DNA of 30,746 nt, taken from a virus. The notes below the pieces were generated by a model. It was not told the origin of the DNA. It saw only the letters and a list, made by a program, of their open reading frames with translations, and did no database searches. Below, in pieces: positions 5,010-30,689 of the stretch. The translations under genes were made by a program, and so were the position numbers. Location of the stretch: positions 1-30,746 of the IMG/VR virus record IMGVR_UViG_3300046010_000908. One strand, 5' to 3'. How positions within the stretch are numbered: the stretch's first letter is position 1; each line of letters begins with the position of its first letter.

Positions 5010-6032
5010 ATGTCGCTAATCAATCGGTTATTAAAGGCAAACCCGTCAGCGCAAGTTTCAGATATGCTGACGGGGTATTTTGTCATTCCTTCTGCTAAGG
5101 GTGTGTTTGAACAAGTTGGTACAAGAGGTTTATTTGCGGGCGGTAAGGCTCCGACCAATACAGCAGGAAATGGTCAAAATGTCATTCAATACATTGATAT
5201 AGCAACAACGGGAAACAGCACAGACTTTGGCGATTTAACGCTTGCTCGTTCGGCTTTTCAGGGTTTCGGAAGCACGGGTCGTGCTTGTTTTGGTGGCGGT
5301 ATGAATACAGGCGGAATTACTGTAAATGTAATAGATTATGTAACAACTTCTACATTGGGCAACGCTAATGACTTTGGAGATTTACTTGCTATCAATAGAC
5401 AACTAGGTGCTTCATCAAATAACACAAGGGGTGTGTTTATCGGTGGTTACAATGACAGCGCAGGTGATATTGGAACTATTCAATATGTAACAATCGCCTC
5501 AACAGGTAATACGACAAGTTTTGGAACCATGACAAGAGCAGAGTTTACAAAAACTGGTGCTGGTTCGTCTACAAGAGCAATACAAATGGGTGGTGCTTAC
5601 AATGGTGGAAGTAACTACTCAGACACTATTACTTACTTTGAATACGCCACTCTTGGGAACTCCACAAGTTTTGGGACATTATCGGGTGATAGAGTGACTC
5701 CATCCACCGCTTCATCTAGTACAAGATGTTTGGGTATGGGTGGGTTTGGGCTTAGTGTTGGTTTTAGAAATACTATCGATTATGTAACTATTGCTACGAC
5801 TGGTAACGCCACAAACTTTGGTAACTTGACTACCTCAATGTATGAAGGTTGTGGCATTTCAAATAATACTCGAGCGGTAAATGCTGGTGGTTTAACTGGG
5901 GGTAGCACAGTTCAAAATGTAATAGATTATGTCACGATTGCCTCAACAGGAAACGCAACTGATTTTGGTGATTTATTACAAAACACGCTAGCCGAAGCAG
6001 GTGCTAGTAATGGTCACGGAGGACTCGTATGA
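5010..6032 (+). CDS. Six-repeat propeller-like virion protein
   Basis: The 340-residue protein has a short N-terminal region with PSAQVSDMLTGYF and PSAKGVF, then six repeats of about 47-50 residues. Each repeat runs TRGxFxGG, a variable loop, NxIDYVTIASTGN, a three-residue spacer, FGDL, then a variable stretch ending in Ser. The TRGxFxGG opening and the regular length resemble kelch-type beta-propeller blades, so six repeats would make one six-bladed propeller. It ends in SNGHGGL. It overlaps the next gene by ATGA. A carbohydrate- or receptor-binding role on the virion is inferred. Confidence 0.7.
   Translation: MSLINRLLKANPSAQVSDMLTGYFVIPSAKGVFEQVGTRGLFAGGKAPTNTAGNGQNVIQYIDIATTGNSTDFGDLTLARSAFQGFGSTGRACFGGGMNTGGITVNVIDYVTTSTLGNANDFGDLLAINRQLGASSNNTRGVFIGGYNDSAGDIGTIQYVTIASTGNTTSFGTMTRAEFTKTGAGSSTRAIQMGGAYNGGSNYSDTITYFEYATLGNSTSFGTLSGDRVTPSTASSSTRCLGMGGFGLSVGFRNTIDYVTIATTGNATNFGNLTTSMYEGCGISNNTRAVNAGGLTGGSTVQNVIDYVTIASTGNATDFGDLLQNTLAEAGASNGHGGLV
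5121..6026 (+). repeat. Six tandem blade repeats
   Basis: Six imperfect coding repeats of about 140-155 bases are recognisable by the conserved GNxxxFG residues (GNSTDFG, GNANDFG, GNTTSFG, GNSTSFG, GNATNFG, GNATDFG). The best-conserved DNA core encodes DYVTIASTGN. Loops between TRGxFxGG and the core vary freely in length and sequence, as expected for surface loops on a propeller. Confidence 0.8.
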
Positions 6033-7945
6033 CATATTTACCACAAATTAGAATCCTTGTTCCTAGCGCACAAGTAAGTAGTTATACAACTGGTAGTTTT
6101 AATTTACCTAGTGCGAGGGGTCAGTTTACAAGTGCGGCAGTAAGAGCCTTATACGGTTCAGGTATTCTAGCAAATAATAACAACACAGCCAATATCGATT
6201 TTTTCAATATATCCTCACTTGGTAACGCAAGCACTTTTGGAAATGTAACCGTAGAAAGGCGAGGTATCCAAGCATTTTCCTCACCAACTAGAGGTGTATT
6301 TGGTGGCGGATACTCTGATATTTCAAGTGGTTCAAGAAATGAAATTGATTATGTAACTATCGCTACAACTGGAAATGCCGCAGATTTCGGTGATATGACT
6401 TCAGCAAGACACGAAGCAACACAGGGTTGTTCATCAGATACTAGAGGTCTATTTAGCGGCGGTGCAAGCACATCAATCGGAACTAACAATGTAATTGATT
6501 ATGTAACCATTGCTTCAACTGGAAATGCCATTGATTTTGGTGATACGACTACCAGCAAATATGGAATGGCTTCTACCTCCTCAACAACAAGAGGTTTATT
6601 TGCTGGTGGTAATCAGAGCGGTGTAATAAATGTGATTGATTATGTAACCATTGCAACTACTGGAAATGCTATTGATTTTGGTGACTTGAGTGTTAGTCGA
6701 GATTTTGCTGGAGGTCTTTCCTCAAATACAAGAGGTGTATTTGGTGGCGGTAGGTTAAGTTCAGGCGAGTCAAACACTATTGATTATGTAACGATTGCTT
6801 CTACTGGAAATGCAACTGACTTTGGTGATTTACTTACTACTTTATTTCACATGGGAAGCACATCCTCAAAAATTCGTGGCGTTTTTATGGGTGGAAGTAC
6901 TGGAAGTTATACCAATGTAATTCAATTTGTAAACATTGAATCGACTGGAAACGCAACAGACTTCGGTGATTTAACAGCCGCTAAACAATCAGGTGGAGCC
7001 ACCTCATCAAGTCACGGTGGTCATGCTGGTACTGACCCAACTCTTGAACAAGGCGTCATGGTTATTATGGGTGGATATGACGGAGCATATAAAAATGAAA
7101 TCTCCTACATAGATATAGCAAGTTTTGGTAACGATGTTGATTTTGGAGATTTATCCGCAACAAGGGGTTGGCTCGCTGGTATCGGAAATACAACAAGGGG
7201 CATTAGTGCAGGTGGCGAAAAACCATCACCAACAGCAAATCTAAACATTATTGAATACTTCACTTTTGCAACAAGTGGAAATATGACTGACTTTGGCGAC
7301 TTGCTTTTTGAAGGTTATGGCGCCTATGGAACAAATAATGCAACAAGAGGTTTATTTAGCGGGGGTGAAACCACGGGGGGCATACAAAATGTTATTCAGT
7401 ATGTAACAATCGCCTCAACAGGCAACGCAACAGATTTTGGTGATTTAACACAAGCCCGTACTTATCATGCAAGTGTAAGTAACGGTACTACCGCTTTTAC
7501 TTGTGGTGGAAACAATGGAAACACTTTTTACAATATCATTGATTATGTAACCATTGCTTCAACAGGAAATGCTACTGATTTTGGTGATTTGACGGTCACT
7601 AGGTCTATTCAAGATTCAAGAGCACACTCAACCACAAGAGCAATTTTGGCTGGTGGAAGATTAAATAATACAAGTAGCAATACTAATACTATTGATTATT
7701 TTACAATGGCTAGCGTTGGAAATGCAGTAGATTTTGGTGACTTAACGGCTTCTAAACTAACAATGGGGCAAGGTTCTACAATTAGAGGTGTCTTTGCGGG
7801 AGGTCTTATTGAATCAGGTTCAACATATCAAACTGCTATCGATTATGTAACTATTGCTTCAACAGGAAATGGTGTAAGTTTTGGTTCATTAACCGACAGT
7901 AAATATGCTTCAGGTGCGGCAAGTAATTCACACGGAGGACTGTAA
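6029..7945 (+). CDS. Twelve-repeat (6+6) propeller-like virion protein
   Basis: The 638-residue paralogue of the preceding gene keeps the same N-terminal motif (PSAQVSSYTTGSF, PSARGQF) and then carries twelve blade repeats. After repeat six there is SSSHGGHAGTDPTLEQ; after repeat twelve comes SNSHGGL, the same ending as the six-repeat neighbour. The protein is therefore best read as two six-blade units fused in tandem, joined by a short linker. Start ATG overlaps the upstream TGA. It likely displays two propellers on the virion surface to bind host glycans or neighbouring structures; that role is inference. Confidence 0.7.
   Translation: MTYLPQIRILVPSAQVSSYTTGSFNLPSARGQFTSAAVRALYGSGILANNNNTANIDFFNISSLGNASTFGNVTVERRGIQAFSSPTRGVFGGGYSDISSGSRNEIDYVTIATTGNAADFGDMTSARHEATQGCSSDTRGLFSGGASTSIGTNNVIDYVTIASTGNAIDFGDTTTSKYGMASTSSTTRGLFAGGNQSGVINVIDYVTIATTGNAIDFGDLSVSRDFAGGLSSNTRGVFGGGRLSSGESNTIDYVTIASTGNATDFGDLLTTLFHMGSTSSKIRGVFMGGSTGSYTNVIQFVNIESTGNATDFGDLTAAKQSGGATSSSHGGHAGTDPTLEQGVMVIMGGYDGAYKNEISYIDIASFGNDVDFGDLSATRGWLAGIGNTTRGISAGGEKPSPTANLNIIEYFTFATSGNMTDFGDLLFEGYGAYGTNNATRGLFSGGETTGGIQNVIQYVTIASTGNATDFGDLTQARTYHASVSNGTTAFTCGGNNGNTFYNIIDYVTIASTGNATDFGDLTVTRSIQDSRAHSTTRAILAGGRLNNTSSNTNTIDYFTMASVGNAVDFGDLTASKLTMGQGSTIRGVFAGGLIESGSTYQTAIDYVTIASTGNGVSFGSLTDSKYASGAASNSHGGL
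6140..7942 (+). repeat. Twelve tandem blade repeats in two sets of six
   Basis: Counting the conserved GNxxxFG gives six repeats before and six after a linker at about 7001-7055. The DNA around the IDYVTIASTGNA core is nearly identical among several copies, so recombination between copies could change the repeat number. Each set ends with Ser-x-His-Gly-Gly. Confidence 0.8.
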
Positions 7946-13125: not shown

Positions 13126-13153
13126 TGATATACTTGTCTTGTCCCGAGAGGAG
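13126..13153 (+). promoter_or_regulatory. Candidate extended -10 promoter and strong ribosome site
   Basis: TGATATACT at 13126-13134 is an extended -10 element (TGn plus TATACT, one mismatch to TATAAT). No good -35 is present, which extended -10 promoters tolerate. CGAGAGGAG at 13145-13153 is the ribosome site of the gene at 13160. The same nine bases precede the Gam-like gene at 24917. The stretch CTTGTCC at 13138-13144 can pair with GGGCAAG at 13153-13159 and partly cover the ribosome site. Confidence 0.45.
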
Positions 13154-13159
13154 GGCAAG

Positions 13160-14296
13160 ATGAGAGAGTTCAGAATTTCCGAAATAGGAGTTGAGAAGAC
13201 TCTTGCTAAAGCGCAGAAACTTGCTCAACGGGCGCAGAAAAAAGGTTTAAGTGGTGGCTACCAAGTACGCATTGAAAAGCGTTTTGAAGAAATAGAAGGC
13301 ATCAGCCACGAATATCAAGTTTTAGTTATTGAAGGCGAACCAGTCAAATTTAATGGCTGGCAATTTATCGGTGTTGCCGAGTTTATCGAAGGCAAAGCAA
13401 TCACAAAATCAATCGCAGGTGGTCGTGAAATCAAGCCATCTGAAGTCAAGGTTGGTTATTGCGAGCATTGCCAAAAATCTAGGTTTCGTTCAAAAGTAAT
13501 CTTTGTTCAAAATGAAGAAGGCAAGTTATTTCAGGTTGGCTCCAGTTGCGTAAAAGATTACATAGGCTGGCAGTTCAGCGCTTCTTACTTACCAACAGAG
13601 GAAACTTTTGAAGAAGAGTTTGGTGGCTACTCAGGCAATGGCTGGACAGGTCATTCAACAATCGGAGTTTTGGCTCACGCAATCACTCAGGTTCAAAAGG
13701 GCGGATACATACCTTCAGGTTCAGGTATCTCTACTAAATCTCTTGTTTGGGGATATTTAAGCGAAGGACACCACGGCGCTAAAGTTTGGCAAGAATATGT
13801 AGGAGAAAAACCAACCGAGGTTGAATACGAGAAGGCTAGAGAGTTAATCGAATACGGCAAGAATTTTGAAGGCGAATCTAGTTACGCTGAAAATGTCAGA
13901 ATTGTATGTGGTTTGGAATATCAAACTTACAGCACAGTTGGAATTTTGGTTTCGATTATCAAAGCCAAGCAAAAGAGCCAAGAGCAGGAAGTTGCCCGTC
14001 AAGAGGCTAAGGTTTACAAGGCTGAACAGTTCGCCCCAACTGGCGAGCGCATCGAATTGGAAGTTACAGTTCTCAGCGAAAACACCTTTGAGACTCAGTT
14101 TGGCTGGACAACTCTTTATACCTTTGCAAGCGGTGATTACCAATTCAAGTGGTTTGCCTCTAATGGGACAAAGTTAGAAGTGGGCGATAAAGCGGTTGTT
14201 AAGGGAACAATTAAAGGCTCTGATGAGTACAAGGGAAGTTTCTCAACATTGCTTACTAGATGCAAGGTTCTCCAAATTGCAGAAAAAATAGCCTGA
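13160..14296 (+). CDS. Cys-motif protein with OB-like C-terminus, separately promoted
   Basis: The ATG at 13160 is preceded at six bases by CGAGAGGAG; a TTG at 13139 is in frame but unsupported. The 378-residue protein has a charged N-terminal helix and a GWQFIGVAEF segment. A Cys-motif then runs from GYCEHCQKSRFRSK to a VGSSCVKDYIGW block near residues 99-139, where further ligands are not obvious. The C-terminal domain (about 285-375) contains GWTTLYTFASGDYQFKWFAS and LEVGDKAVVKGTIK and resembles an OB-fold. I recognise the family only as a hypothetical protein of phages and plasmids. Nucleic-acid binding is likely by analogy. Its own promoter sets it apart from the structural genes around it. 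Confidence 0.6.
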   Translation: MREFRISEIGVEKTLAKAQKLAQRAQKKGLSGGYQVRIEKRFEEIEGISHEYQVLVIEGEPVKFNGWQFIGVAEFIEGKAITKSIAGGREIKPSEVKVGYCEHCQKSRFRSKVIFVQNEEGKLFQVGSSCVKDYIGWQFSASYLPTEETFEEEFGGYSGNGWTGHSTIGVLAHAITQVQKGGYIPSGSGISTKSLVWGYLSEGHHGAKVWQEYVGEKPTEVEYEKARELIEYGKNFEGESSYAENVRIVCGLEYQTYSTVGILVSIIKAKQKSQEQEVARQEAKVYKAEQFAPTGERIELEVTVLSENTFETQFGWTTLYTFASGDYQFKWFASNGTKLEVGDKAVVKGTIKGSDEYKGSFSTLLTRCKVLQIAEKIA

Positions 14297-24916: not shown

Positions 24917-25459
24917 ATGGACAACGCATTAGAAGTAACACCAGTTGATGATTTTGAAATCATTCAAGAGCCAGCCCGTGAACCATTCAAAGTTGATGAT
25001 GATTCCAAGGCAGATTGGGCAATGCGAAAACTTGCCTCAATTCGGCGCAAACAAGCAGAGAACAAAGACATCTTTGACCGAGAGGTTAAGAGGGTCATGG
25101 AATGGCTTGAGAAGGTCAATACAGCCCTTGAGAGGGATGCTGAGTGGTTTGAGTCCAACCTACGCCCATACGCCCTTCAGGAGCGCTCTAAAGACCGTAA
25201 AAGCATAGTTCTGCCCCACGGCACAATCAAAACTATTTCAGGTCGAGTTAAGTTCGATATTGAGGATGAAACTAAGTTCATTGAATGGGCTGAGAAGAAC
25301 GCCCCCGAATTAGTCAGAGTTAAAAAAGAAATTGATAAAAAAGCGCTAGGTGCTTTGAATCAATCTGAAGATAAGGTAATATCAACCCAAGGTGAAATTG
25401 TGCCAGCAGTAAAAGTTATACCTGCTGAGACTTCAGTTTCATTTGTTATTGCAGAGTAG
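24917..25459 (+). CDS. Gam-like host nuclease inhibitor
   Basis: The 180-residue protein has a long charged helical region (residues 30-90, VKRVMEWLEKVNTALERDAEWFESNL) followed by SIVLPHGTIKTISGR and FIEWAEKNAPELVRVKKEIDK. This is the signature of Mu Gam-like proteins, which bind DNA ends and block exonucleases. It is the first gene behind the early promoter and directly precedes an ERF annealase, a natural pairing for recombination of linear phage DNA. The family call is strong. Confidence 0.85.
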   Translation: MDNALEVTPVDDFEIIQEPAREPFKVDDDSKADWAMRKLASIRRKQAENKDIFDREVKRVMEWLEKVNTALERDAEWFESNLRPYALQERSKDRKSIVLPHGTIKTISGRVKFDIEDETKFIEWAEKNAPELVRVKKEIDKKALGALNQSEDKVISTQGEIVPAVKVIPAETSVSFVIAE

Positions 25460-25470
25460 AGAGAGGGACA

Positions 25471-26139
25471 ATGGAAAACAAATTACCTATCGCTCAAGCA
25501 TTGAGCGAGATTATGAAAGCAGTTGGCGGTATCGCCAAGAAGGATAAAAACACATCTCAAGGATTCAATTTCCGAGGGATTGATTCAGTAGTCAATGCAG
25601 TCTCACCAGCCCTACAAAAGTTTGGTGTGGTTGTAGTTCCATCAGTTGAAGAGTACGAATATCAAACAGTTGAGATAGGTCGTAACCGAACAGCAATGGG
25701 ACATGTCAAAGTCAAAGTTAGTTATACATTCATTGGTGCAAACGGTGATGCAATTAAAGCCACGGTTGTTGGTGAAGCGATGGACTCGGGCGATAAGGCA
25801 ACAGCCAAAGCCATGTCAGTTGCTTTCCGTACAGCCCTACTTCAATCACTAGCACTACCAACCGATGAAGTAGACCCTGATGCACAATCCTACGAACGCT
25901 CATCCTCTGATGATGTTATGGCGCCCTCTGCGGTTCTAACAAAAATTCATCAAGCGTCCGACTTGGAATCATTGGCTTCAGTTGGTCAGTACATAACTGC
26001 CAACAAAGAAAAATACAACGCTGAACTTTTAGAGCAGTTCCGTCTTAAGTTCCGTGAGCAACAATTAAAAATTAACCCACCAAAATTGGAAGAGGAATCC
26101 GATGAAGTCAAAGTCGAAGGAGTTGCTGTTTCATCCTGA
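25471..26139 (+). CDS. ERF-family single-strand annealing protein
   Basis: The 222-residue protein contains QGFNFRGIDSVVNAVSPAL near residues 30-48, then VVVVPSV, then a block with EAMDSGDKATAKAMSVAFRTALLQ, which is diagnostic of ERF recombinases. These form rings on single-stranded DNA and anneal complementary strands. The C-terminal 60 residues are acidic and probably bind partners. No exonuclease gene is seen in the window, so it may depend on host nucleases or one encoded further right. Confidence 0.9.
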   Translation: MENKLPIAQALSEIMKAVGGIAKKDKNTSQGFNFRGIDSVVNAVSPALQKFGVVVVPSVEEYEYQTVEIGRNRTAMGHVKVKVSYTFIGANGDAIKATVVGEAMDSGDKATAKAMSVAFRTALLQSLALPTDEVDPDAQSYERSSSDDVMAPSAVLTKIHQASDLESLASVGQYITANKEKYNAELLEQFRLKFREQQLKINPPKLEEESDEVKVEGVAVSS

Positions 26140-26491
26140 ACTTCCATACGCAGGGACTTCGGGACATAGTGGGACAGATACATCTAAAGAGCGAGCGCTA
26201 AAGGCGGATAGGTCGGGTAAGACTGCCCTACGCCAAGCGCAAGCCTTAAACCTTTTATCGCAAAGAGAATTGGTTGGGCTAACTTGGAAAGAGTTATCTG
26301 AAGTAACAGGACTTCACCATGGAACCGCTTCGGGTGTATTGTCCGTCCTCCATAAATCAGGTCGCATTGCCCGTCTCAAAGAGACTCGTAATGGATGCAA
26401 GGTTTATGTAGATGTTTCTTGTATTGAAGGTAGATTAGTTGAACGACAAGGGCGAAAGAAAAATTGCCCTCATTGTGGAGGAGATTTGTGA
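26102..26491 (+). CDS. Winged-helix protein with C-terminal CxxC
   Basis: The 129-residue protein starts 38 bases inside the ERF gene, after a GAGGAA site. Residues 11-30 hold the FHPELPYAGTSGHSGTDTS block that I recognise from early actinophage proteins. Residues 48-103 form a winged helix (LTWKELSEVTGLHHGTASGVLSVLHKSG). CPHCGGDL at the C-terminus has two Cys that could bind zinc in a dimer. It is likely a DNA-binding regulator or replication accessory. Its stop overlaps the next start (GTGA). Confidence 0.75.
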   Translation: MKSKSKELLFHPELPYAGTSGHSGTDTSKERALKADRSGKTALRQAQALNLLSQRELVGLTWKELSEVTGLHHGTASGVLSVLHKSGRIARLKETRNGCKVYVDVSCIEGRLVERQGRKKNCPHCGGDL

Positions 26492-27204
26492 GCATCAGGT
26501 GGATTACTAAAGTTTGGGCGGATTCGCCTTACGATGGAACCAAACTTTTAATTCATCTTGCGCTCGCAGATATTTCTCATGATGATGGTCGATTCTTCGC
26601 CTCTCAGTCAAACCTTGCTTCCAAGGGTAGATGTTCAGTTGAGTATGTTCGGAAAGTCATAAACGAGATGGTGGCTGATGGGCATATCAAGATTATTACT
26701 AAAGGTAATTCCCGAGGTAATGCAACTGTCTACCAGTTGTTATGGAAGAAACTCCCCAACTCAGTAGGGGACGAACAAAGTTTAGGAGAGGTAGAACTCC
26801 CCAACTTAGATACCCCCGACTCCCCAACTCTGACCCCTTCACTCCCCAACTCCACTCCGTACCATCCGTCCTATACATCCGTCCTATCTACAACGAAGAG
26901 TGACGAAACTGCTGTCGCAGTTGTCGCACTCTCTGAAGCAGTAGCAAGAAAATGGTGGGAGAAGCAAAGAGTTAAACCATTGGGTAAAAGTGCTTGGCAC
27001 TCTTTACTAGCAATCTGCCAAGCGGCAGAGAAGCGAGGCTACCAAGCCGAACAAATTGAACAGGCGTTAGATTACATAGGCACAGTTCCATCTATGAGAC
27101 AGATGGACTTAGTTCTTAGAGGAGTGGGGGTAAAGACAAAACATGAGCAATCAGCAATTAGAGCCATCGAGTTATCAGAAAAACTCCGCAATGAGTCTGT
27201 CTGA
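26488..27204 (+). CDS. Replication initiator-like protein
   Basis: I use GTG at 26488, five bases after GGAGGAG, with GTGA overlapping the upstream stop; a TTG at 26464 is in frame but unsupported. The 238-residue protein has an N-terminal winged-helix domain (SQSNLASKGRCSVEYVRKVINEMVADGHIKI). A Pro/Ser/Thr-rich linker at about residues 88-145 follows, then a helical C-terminus (KWWEKQRVKPLG, IEQALDYIGTV). This is the plan of lambda O-type initiators. The linker DNA carries direct repeats described separately as an origin. The role is inferred from domain plan and repeats. Confidence 0.7.
   Translation: MSIRWITKVWADSPYDGTKLLIHLALADISHDDGRFFASQSNLASKGRCSVEYVRKVINEMVADGHIKIITKGNSRGNATVYQLLWKKLPNSVGDEQSLGEVELPNLDTPDSPTLTPSLPNSTPYHPSYTSVLSTTKSDETAVAVVALSEAVARKWWEKQRVKPLGKSAWHSLLAICQAAEKRGYQAEQIEQALDYIGTVPSMRQMDLVLRGVGVKTKHEQSAIRAIELSEKLRNESV
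26751..26887 (+). other. Candidate replication origin with iterons
   Basis: ACTCCCCAACT occurs exactly four times, at 26751-26761, 26796-26806, 26819-26829 and 26841-26851, spaced 45, 23 and 22 bases. CATCCGTCCTAT then occurs twice in tandem, at 26863-26874 and 26876-26887. The third copy of the first repeat and the second copy of the second are read in different codon frames from their partners, so DNA rather than protein sequence is conserved. The cluster sits in the linker part of the initiator gene, as the lambda origin does in O. An AT-rich stretch lies just upstream at about 26685-26710. Confidence 0.65.
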
Positions 27205-27589
27205 TATTGCAGTTCTTGTCGGCTTCATCGGTATTTACGATTTAAGAATTCAAGTTGATGAGTTAAAGGTTCGAGCATGGGCAGAATCTTTTGACTCGGA
27301 TTTACCATTACAGGAAGCAAAACGAATTGTTTCTTGGCATTATGCAAACTTTGACACGGCTATCCAACCATCACACATAAACAAAGAATGGCGTCGTAGG
27401 ATGTCTGATGAAAGAGAAAGAGAAAAAAGCCGTCTTCTAAGTTTAGAGTTTGAGGAACGAGAAAAACAAAAAGCATCTCCTGAAGTTATTGCTAAATGGA
27501 AAAAAGAGTTTCGGGAATACAGGGAAAGAAACAGGGTGGCGGATGCTCCGTTGGAAACAGATAGCGGGACTGTGGCACCTGACGCATGA
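27191..27589 (+). CDS. Replication loader-like helical protein
   Basis: I prefer ATG 27191 (overlap 14 bases, giving MSLSDIAVLVGFIGIYDLR) over ATG 27143 (overlap 62 bases); neither has a good ribosome site. The 132-residue product is helical, with WAESFDSDLPLQEAKRIVSWHYANFD and IQPSHINKEWRRRM, then a charged helix and a disordered end. I recall a similar small domain in actinophage proteins next to replication genes, perhaps helicase loaders. Directly following the initiator supports a replication role; nothing here shows activity. Confidence 0.6.
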   Translation: MSLSDIAVLVGFIGIYDLRIQVDELKVRAWAESFDSDLPLQEAKRIVSWHYANFDTAIQPSHINKEWRRRMSDEREREKSRLLSLEFEEREKQKASPEVIAKWKKEFREYRERNRVADAPLETDSGTVAPDA

Positions 27590-28689: not shown

Positions 28690-28985
28690 GTACAGTAATG
28701 GAAGCAACAGAGTTAGACGGCAAAGGACTTGATGAGGTCAAACTTCTAACAGATGCAATCCGTACCCATCAATCTCAGATTCAAGACTTGGGTAAAAGAC
28801 GCAAGCAGTTGATTCTTAGATTACGAAAACAAAGAATCACCTACCGAGAGATTGCTGAAGCCATGGGTGTATCAGAGCAGTTAATTTACAAAATTATCCG
28901 CAACGATATTGAAAGAGTTCCTGAGTACGACAACGACGGGAACATTATTCGTAGACGAGGACGACCAGCGAAACAATTAGCCTAA
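28686..28985 (+). CDS. Helix-turn-helix regulator with AT-hook-like end
   Basis: The 99-residue protein has a charged coiled-coil-like N-terminal half (QSQIQDLGKRRKQLILRLRKQ) and a helix-turn-helix at about 50-72 (ITYREIAEAMGVSEQLIYKII). Its basic end RRRGRPAK looks like an AT-hook. It probably binds DNA as a regulator. Its location inside the early operon, right before the methyltransferase, suggests control of that operon, possibly through the palindrome at 24871, but no direct evidence links them. ATGA and TAATG overlaps couple it to both neighbours. Confidence 0.7.
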   Translation: MSTVMEATELDGKGLDEVKLLTDAIRTHQSQIQDLGKRRKQLILRLRKQRITYREIAEAMGVSEQLIYKIIRNDIERVPEYDNDGNIIRRRGRPAKQLA

Positions 28986-30055
28986 TGAAGTTCATTGAAC
29001 TTTTTGCAGGTATTGGAGCCTTTCGACTTGGACTTGAAAGAACAGGTCATGAGTGCGTTTGGGCTAACGAATGGTTAGAGAGACCTAGGAGTATTTATGC
29101 ACGAAACTTCGGACACCAACCTGACGGACGAGATATTAGAAATGTTTCCGCTGGAGACCTTCCTGATGCCGACCTCCTCGTTGGAGGATTCCCTTGTGCG
29201 ACTTTTTCAGTCGCAGGGAAGCGAACAGGATTCTCTTTGGATGACACCCGAGGGACACTCGCTTTTGAAATGTTTAGACTCGCTCACGAAAAATCAATAC
29301 CGTATCTCCTCTTTGAGAATGTCAAAGGACTACTCAACCACGACGGAGGAAGAACATTCGAAATCATCCTTGAAGTCTTGGATGGCTTGGGGTATGACTG
29401 TCAATGGGAATTGCTTGACAGCCAAAATTTCGGCGTCCCGCAACACCGAGAAAGGGTATTCCTTATCGGACATCTTAGAGGAAACCCCCGACCAAAAGTA
29501 TTTCCTATCGGAGCAACAAGTAGAAGCAATGATGGCTCGAACTCGGAAGAACGAGAAGGAAGGCAGGGGCTTTTCTCCGACATTTCTCCGACCCTCGACG
29601 CTCACTACTACAAAGGAGGAAACTCCCGACAGTATGTAGTTGAGCAGTTCATTCGCAGAGATAATTCTTTTAGAACTTTTGAGAATGTTGCTCCAACTTT
29701 ATTGGCTCACATGGGAACAGGTGGAAACAATGTGCCATTTGTTAGACCAGTTCTCGATGTAGCAAGAGTAAACAAATCACCAAACGGGCGACTTATTAAA
29801 GATGATGGAGACCCGATGTACACAATAACAGCGCAAGACCGTCACGGAGTTCAAATTGGGGATGAGGATGGCTTTGCGATTAGAAAACTAACTCCCTTGG
29901 AGTGCGAGCGCCTTCAAGGATTACCCGATGGATGGACGGAGTTCTACGAAGATGGAAGAAGAGTTTCAGATTCCGAAAGATACGAACGATGCGGACGGAC
30001 AATCACTATCTCAGTCGTGGAAGCGATTGGTAGAAAACTTCATGACTTCTACTGA
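28985..30055 (+). CDS. DNA (cytosine-5) methyltransferase
   Basis: The 356-residue enzyme shows the C5-methyltransferase motifs in order: FIELFAGIGAF at 3-13 (SAM binding), GGFPCATFSVAGKR at 67-80 with catalytic Cys71, ENV at 111-113, NFGVPQHRERVFLIGH at 148-163, LTPLECERLQGLPDGW near the end and a C-terminal SVVEAIGRKL. The usual Gln after Pro-Cys is Ala, which I recall in other phage enzymes. Motif X reads GRT where GN is common. It has no restriction partner nearby, so it likely protects phage DNA from host enzymes. Confidence 0.92.
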   Translation: MKFIELFAGIGAFRLGLERTGHECVWANEWLERPRSIYARNFGHQPDGRDIRNVSAGDLPDADLLVGGFPCATFSVAGKRTGFSLDDTRGTLAFEMFRLAHEKSIPYLLFENVKGLLNHDGGRTFEIILEVLDGLGYDCQWELLDSQNFGVPQHRERVFLIGHLRGNPRPKVFPIGATSRSNDGSNSEEREGRQGLFSDISPTLDAHYYKGGNSRQYVVEQFIRRDNSFRTFENVAPTLLAHMGTGGNNVPFVRPVLDVARVNKSPNGRLIKDDGDPMYTITAQDRHGVQIGDEDGFAIRKLTPLECERLQGLPDGWTEFYEDGRRVSDSERYERCGRTITISVVEAIGRKLHDFY

Positions 30056-30689
30056 GCCATTCTCATTCGACACTATTAAAAACTTTGATGAGCATATTGC
30101 TCAATCAATTCCCAACTACCACACGCTGACTGAAGCAATCTGTGACCTGAGTACATACTTCATGACTGAAGATACTCAAGTGATTGACCTTGGTTGCTCT
30201 ACTGGAAAACTATTAGAAAGACTTCCGCATCGTGGCAGAAAAGTTGGAATCGATATAGCCGATAACCTTTTGCCTGAGTCTCATGATGAGACTTTGTATA
30301 TCCGCCGAGACCTTAGAGCCTTAGATAATTTTGGTAAGTCCAGTTTAATTCTTTCAATCTTTACCCTTCAGTTTATTCCTTACGAAGACAGACCGAACAT
30401 CCTAAGCAACATCTATGAATCTCTAGTTGAGGGTGGGGCTTTTATATGGGCTGAAAAAGTCCGTGAAGAGGATGGGGAACTTGAGCAAGCCATCAATGGC
30501 GCTTTCTTTGATTTTAAGCGCAAGGCTTTCACCCCTGAGCAGATATTAAATAAAGAGCGAGACTTGAGACCAATTATGAAAGTCAATTCATCTGTGAGAA
30601 ATCAGATATTGGCTGAGAACGCTGGCTTCACAGTTGGCACTATGTTTTGGAAGTTCTATAACTTCGAGGCTTGGCTATTTGTGAAATGA
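30042..30689 (+). CDS. CmoA-like SAM-dependent methyltransferase
   Basis: The ATG at 30042 overlaps the methyltransferase gene by 14 bases and gives 215 residues. It begins near NFDEHIAQSIPNY, like cellular CmoA. DLGCSTG at 49-55 is the SAM loop; FTLQF at 107-111, GGAFIWAEK at 131-139, FFDFKR at 155-160 and a final FYNFEAWLFVK follow in CmoA order. CmoA converts SAM plus prephenate to carboxy-SAM for tRNA wobble-uridine modification. By my alignment, the E. coli Arg thought to bind the carboxylate falls next to Glu172-Arg173, so substrate choice is open. Plain methyl transfer is an alternative. Confidence 0.7.
   Translation: MTSTEPFSFDTIKNFDEHIAQSIPNYHTLTEAICDLSTYFMTEDTQVIDLGCSTGKLLERLPHRGRKVGIDIADNLLPESHDETLYIRRDLRALDNFGKSSLILSIFTLQFIPYEDRPNILSNIYESLVEGGAFIWAEKVREEDGELEQAINGAFFDFKRKAFTPEQILNKERDLRPIMKVNSSVRNQILAENAGFTVGTMFWKFYNFEAWLFVK

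Follow-up and report, generated by a model that had tools for sequence, protein, structure and literature searches.

Intragenic origins in phages and plasmids

Gp38 of phage SPP1 binds direct repeats of oriL, an origin that lies within gene 38 and is accompanied by an AT-rich unwinding element and the loader gp39 (PMC6316719). The lambdoid origin is likewise found in the middle of the O gene, where it consists of iterons and an AT-rich region (PMC7466680). Among plasmids, the Rep protein of pSK41 binds four boxes located centrally in rep, the origin encoding the linker of the protein, and a mini-replicon of the hybrid pPR9, whose N-terminal domain is Pfam HTH_36 (PF13730), is able to replicate (PMC5703833).

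Here we describe a comparable array in a viral sequence of 30,746 nt, IMG/VR record IMGVR_UViG_3300046010_000908, the whole of which is referred to as the window. With a probability of roughly 0.88, positions of about 26750–26925 are a phage theta-replication origin of the intragenic iteron kind known from lambda, SPP1 and pSK41, situated within the very gene that encodes its initiator. As in SPP1, direct repeats within the initiator gene are followed by a helicase-loader gene, in the window a predicted one, and the predicted fold of its product best matches gp39 (PDB 1no1). Unlike SPP1, the iteron and initiator sequences are different, the DNA beyond the iterons is no richer in A and T than what surrounds it, and no oriR-like second cluster of the 10-mer core CTCCCCAACT was seen in 14 related contigs of 54–62 kb, whereas SPP1 has a second origin, oriR.

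The likeness to lambda drawn in the preliminary description also holds, in that the iterons lie mid-initiator, between the parts encoding the DNA-binding and C-terminal domains (PMC7466680). Both have four sites about two turns apart, and in both the number of iterons can change with the linker. However, lambda has 19-bp imperfect inverted repeats, an evident AT-rich region and the loader P, while the window has mainly 9–11-bp single sites and one inverted pair. With the staphylococcal RepA_N initiators of pSK41 and pPR9, the window protein shares a predicted architecture of winged-helix N-terminal domain, origin-encoded linker and helical C-terminal domain, including a weak match to the HTH_36 domain of pPR9. 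Unlike the window phage, pSK41 is a plasmid, its RepA_N match is absent from the window initiator, and it contacts DnaG, whereas a separate, predicted loader gene follows the window initiator.

The repeat array

The four exact copies of the 11-mer ACTCCCCAACT that had been claimed for this locus are all present (Table 1), and the exact sequence is absent elsewhere in the window. When up to two mismatches are allowed, 18 matches are found against 7.2 expected, a count reached in 0 of 100 shuffles; the repeats are real and go beyond chance. The two tandem 12-mers reported with them were likewise recovered as exact copies of CATCCGTCCTAT, with a 13-nt period.

Two details of the preliminary description needed amendment. 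First, its regular spacing with one double interval stands as to the distances, which are 45, 23 and 22 nt, but the long gap is not empty, since in most relatives it holds an inverted half-site, GTTGGGGAG, the reverse complement of the core CTCCCCAAC. This site, which follows copy 1 and forms a direct/inverted pair with it, explains the double interval. On comparison with the relatives, the GTAGGGGAC of the window is a worn version of it, and one relative (G007) carries an exact inverted copy, CTCCCCAACT, at that position. Second, the copies were said to lie in different codon frames, which is true of copy 3 alone (read S-P-T), as the other three share an L-P-N frame. With three of four copies in one frame, the main case for selection on the DNA is synonymous conservation rather than frame alone.

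Table 1. Features of the proposed origin and its surroundings, in window coordinates.
Feature	Position	Strand	Remarks
Gam-like and Erf-like recombination genes, upstream in cassette	24917..26139	+	Pfam/PHROGs
MarR-like helix-turn-helix gene, upstream in cassette	26102..26491	+	Pfam MarR_2 weak; order as in Arthrobacter phages
Replication initiator gene	26488..27204	+	GTG start, 238 aa; PHROG 270/391/8540, Pfam HTH_36 weak, AlphaFold2 model
Predicted winged-helix DNA-binding domain, coding part (residues 1–86)	26488..26745	+	model; weak Foldseek matches
Iteron copy 1, ACTCCCCAACT	26751..26761	+	exact here; one base off in many relatives
Block strongly constrained at synonymous sites (proposed origin)	26755..26925	+	codons 90–146; values in text
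Inverted half-site, degenerate GTAGGGGAC	26764..26772	-	GTTGGGGAG in most relatives
Iteron copy 2, ACTCCCCAACT	26796..26806	+	core invariant in relatives
Iteron copy 3, ACTCCCCAACT, other codon frame	26819..26829	+	TCC CCA ACT codons invariant 50/50
Iteron copy 4, ACTCCCCAACT	26841..26851	+	core invariant in relatives
Tandem 13-mer copy 1, CATCCGTCCTATA, proposed unwinding-side element	26863..26875	+	CAACAGTCCTAT in L103/L121/L141/L147
Tandem 13-mer copy 2, CATCCGTCCTATC	26876..26888	+	tandem with copy 1
Predicted SPP1 G39P-like helicase loader, overlaps initiator gene	27143..27589	+	model, Foldseek 1no1, Kovu synteny

The initiator gene and its neighbours

The gene that bears the repeats encodes a winged-helix initiator, as judged by PHROGs, a structural model and the annotation of a homologous cassette. 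It matches PHROGs 270, 391 and 8540, 'replication initiation (O-like)', with E-values of 2e-8 to 2e-6 (reported also as 1e-8 to 1e-6). In the syntenic, cultured phage Kovu, this gene and the next are annotated as 'RepA-like replication initiator' and 'helicase loader'. A Pfam search of the protein gave weak matches to HTH_36 and DnaD_N and none to RepA_N (PF06970), and sequence profiles found no useful match in the PDB. In the RefSeq entries NC_041947, NC_055032 and NC_055033, the initiator gene is named 'transcriptional repressor', which is probably a misannotation.

An AlphaFold2 model built from 38 relatives (mean pLDDT 64, a modest value) predicts a winged-helix N-terminal domain with the order H-H-E-H-H-E-E (residues 3–84), a disordered linker (residues 87–145, pLDDT<50) and a C-terminal domain of helices (residues 148–234). 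The array lies 260–370 bp inside the gene and coincides with the predicted disordered stretch, which bears out the earlier placing of the repeats where a winged-helix initiator gene codes for its linker. Foldseek comparisons of the model returned winged-helix structures, all weak (E >=0.01), including 5kbj ('Rep-DNA complex'), 4pt7 ('initiator') and 9a5c (DnaD). Plasmid initiators (4pt7, 5kbj) are thus among the matches, which support a winged-helix fold for the model and not any particular family.

The gene that follows is predicted to encode a helicase loader of the G39P fold. Its 148-aa product was modelled with a pLDDT of about 90 over residues 20–100, and the top-ranked Foldseek match was SPP1 G39P (1no1; probability 0.99, TM(target) 0.77, rmsd 2.3 Å), which is far ahead of other PDB matches yet weak by its E-value of 0.38.

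Elsewhere in the window, a repeat unit of ~48 aa (N-x-IDYVTIASTGNATDFGDL) occurs about 15 times in the products of two adjacent genes at 5010–7945, which probably encode a repeat-built structural or receptor-binding protein. A 385-aa protein encoded at 13139–14296 belongs to a PHROG of unknown function (2319) that is common to phages of Vibrio, Aeromonas and Streptomyces. Finally, the region 28985–30689 holds a gene for a C5-cytosine DNA methylase and, overlapping it, another ORF for a SAM-dependent methyltransferase (29928–30689), suggesting evasion of host restriction.

Selection on the array DNA

More than 100 IMG/VR contigs possess the initiator gene or the array, and the codon alignment comprised 75 distinct genes, or 50 after thinning at 97%. 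Over all 75 genes, identity at synonymous sites averages 0.91 within codons 90–146 and 0.58 elsewhere, and 0 of 20,000 column permutations give a block of equal length with such identity. The core CTCCCCAAC of copies 2–4 is invariant at the codon level in all 50 thinned relatives, including copy 3 in its other frame. Copy 1 is one base off in many relatives (CTA for CTC in 28 of 50), where it often reads CTACCCAAC. Amino-acid conservation within the block (0.86) is not above that of the flanking domains (0.93 and 0.87), and so conservation of the protein does not explain the synonymous constraint. Relatives keeping the linker amino acids without the repeats, which had been named as evidence that would count against an origin, were sought and not found. 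Taken from the alignment, selection is acting on the DNA of the array and not on the protein alone.

The stretch beyond the iterons

The two tandem 13-mers vary jointly among relatives, with CATCCGTCCTAT in both copies in most of them and CAACAGTCCTAT in both in L103, L121, L141 and L147; homogenisation between tandem copies could be an alternative cause of the joint change. Seven GC-rich relatives have, directly behind their last iteron, 45 bp that rank among the least stable 0–0.4% of the locus (the best 45-mer within 25 positions being taken), and most of the seven have 13–15-nt tandem repeats there. The corresponding stretch of the window is similar in absolute stability (-58 kcal/mol, against -48 to -57 in the GC-rich relatives), but it is average for its own AT-richer locus and not unusually AT-rich. 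Tandem repeats of 13–15 nt, for example GAACTTAGAACCAAT in three copies, stand right after the iterons of Laroye (L264 4342–4391) and Kovu (L366 2903–2950), where the DNA of the locus is at its least stable.

The unstable post-iteron DNA of the GC-rich relatives and the helicase-loader-like next gene provide independent support for the origin reading. A turning point of GC skew near 26.8 kb, proposed earlier as a check, was absent from the locus in all six genomes analysed, namely Laroye and five related contigs; their overall skew seems to track the direction of the genes.

Distant relatives and cultured Arthrobacter phages

Three GC-rich contigs (L262, L263 and L274), with 36–41% protein identity, retain the sites, here spaced 21 nt apart, together with the inverted site and a tandem 13-mer, the CAACCGTC repeat. 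With the protein of L262 (L127) as query, Arthrobacter phages were found whose cassette has the same order as the window: Gam nuclease inhibitor, recombination ATPase, HTH, initiator, small protein, HNH and HTH. The window capsid is 54–57% identical to capsids of these phages, and hence the host of the window phage is very likely an actinobacterium.

Frame-independent repeats, whose presence in relatives the preliminary description had suggested looking for, do occur in these cultured phages, at the same place in the gene and with another sequence. The initiator gene of Laroye has iterons GGCCCGTCAGCGGGCC (spacings 46, 18, 24, 23), those of Edmundo, Shrooms and Waltz have GGGTACCCC (18, 24, 24, 24), that of Kovu has GGGTAGTCC (25, 24, 23) and that of Ottawa has AACCGGAGC (25, 24, 24); in Laroye, Ottawa and Kovu the copies do not share one codon frame. 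Laroyevirus, Kovu and Ottawa resemble the window phage in their homologous capsid, cassette order and initiator with intragenic iterons and a tandem-repeat stretch, and differ in iterons unrelated to those of the window. Under a uniform rule (at least three exact 9-mers at 18–27-nt or doubled spacing), 10 of the 16 initiators compared have an array, against 1 of the 58 control genes, several of the 16 being close kin, such that the independent count is smaller. Some Arthrobacter and Microbacterium relatives have no such array; by the same rule, the initiators of Bolt007, Prairie, Altadena and Lesiram lack a three-copy array.

The Waltz initiator (L268 1458–2384) looks recombinant, since its N-terminal DNA-binding domain and its iterons are Shrooms-like while its C-terminal domain is Laroye-like. 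The N-terminal domain and the array would seem to travel together in Waltz, as in plasmid pPR9 (PMC5703833), although adjacency by itself would favour this. It is tentatively suggested that such phages of actinobacteria have an origin type of their own, in which 20–25-nt iterons change in sequence with the initiator N-terminal domain and two or three 13–15-nt tandem repeats always come after them. These repeats, which would vary in concert and be held at a nearly constant absolute stability whatever the GC content of the genome, may form a second sequence-specific element with a putative reader.

No origin is annotated in the regions of Laroyevirus, Kovu and Ottawa that were examined, and an earlier description of an in-gene iteron origin in these actinobacterial phages was not found in the literature searched, most subscription journals lying outside it. 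The arrangement, already known from lambda and SPP1, proves to be widespread in this phage group.

Alternative functions of the array

One alternative is that the array serves as an operator, through which either the initiator or the MarR-like protein encoded next to it, bound within the gene, would control transcription or copy number, with the origin elsewhere. Winged-helix proteins often bind repeats, iterons commonly serve as regulatory sites too, and two genes for DNA-binding proteins do lie side by side here. This alternative is nevertheless improbable, given the position of the sites deep within the gene, the tandem repeats that follow in the stretch least stable in GC-rich relatives, and a layout equal to that of SPP1 oriL, lambda ori and pSK41. 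Moreover, the site is found nowhere else in these genomes: in the 14 related contigs of 54–62 kb, all 39 copies of CTCCCCAACT are inside the array and none is upstream of the operon. Among 2.9 million viral contigs, triple CTCCCCAAC arrays were confined to this initiator gene and a few simple tandem repeats. A DNA-level search of annotated phages with the initiator gene gave no match, and a triple-iteron scan of bacterial genomes gave 65 matches without a convincing initiator homologue, those inspected being unrelated repeats; no host or prophage was therefore found.

A role in partition (as a centromere-like site), packaging or recombination is very improbable. Foldseek matches of the initiator model also include TubR and other centromere-binding winged helices, and Gam and Erf recombination genes are located upstream, but no partition ATPase or GTPase was recognised among the neighbouring genes scanned, and both the gene family and the neighbouring gene point to initiation. 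The idea that the linker itself requires repeated LPN(S) motifs, the DNA repeats being a consequence, can be dismissed: the LPN frame is common to three copies and invariant in relatives, yet copy 3 reads SPT with its DNA unchanged, synonymous sites are frozen, the linker is predicted to be disordered, and other phages with the same gene but without LPN have other DNA repeats, out of frame. An RNA element was also considered and dropped (fold z = 0.2, no Rfam match).

Proposed mechanism and significance

The preliminary description's central proposal, an iteron-like origin embedded in the initiator gene, is thus supported by the synonymous constraint, the iterons of Arthrobacter phages, the loader-like next gene and the unstable post-iteron DNA of GC-rich relatives. 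From this comparative evidence we infer that the array has origin activity, that the initiator binds it, and that unwinding and the start of replication take place there. The N-terminal winged-helix domain would bind the CTCCCCAAC sites, namely three copies in direct orientation, spaced by some two turns of the helix, and, upstream of them, the direct/inverted pair. Once occupied, the array would strain the adjoining stretch with its 13-nt tandem repeats, which may then unwind, and the C-terminal domain, together with the G39P-like loader of the next gene, would recruit the replicative helicase. The linker could tolerate the sequence needed by the origin because the array DNA encodes only this disordered part of the protein.

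If true, this reading would map, to the base pair, where replication begins in a large group of phages that are mostly uncultured. It would also locate the origin in cultured Arthrobacter phages, whose initiators still carry the names 'HTH protein' or 'transcriptional repressor', and make it directly testable in these relatives. Moreover, such origins would be candidates for small replicons in actinobacteria, and the natural series of initiator/iteron pairs may reveal how winged-helix initiators choose their sites.
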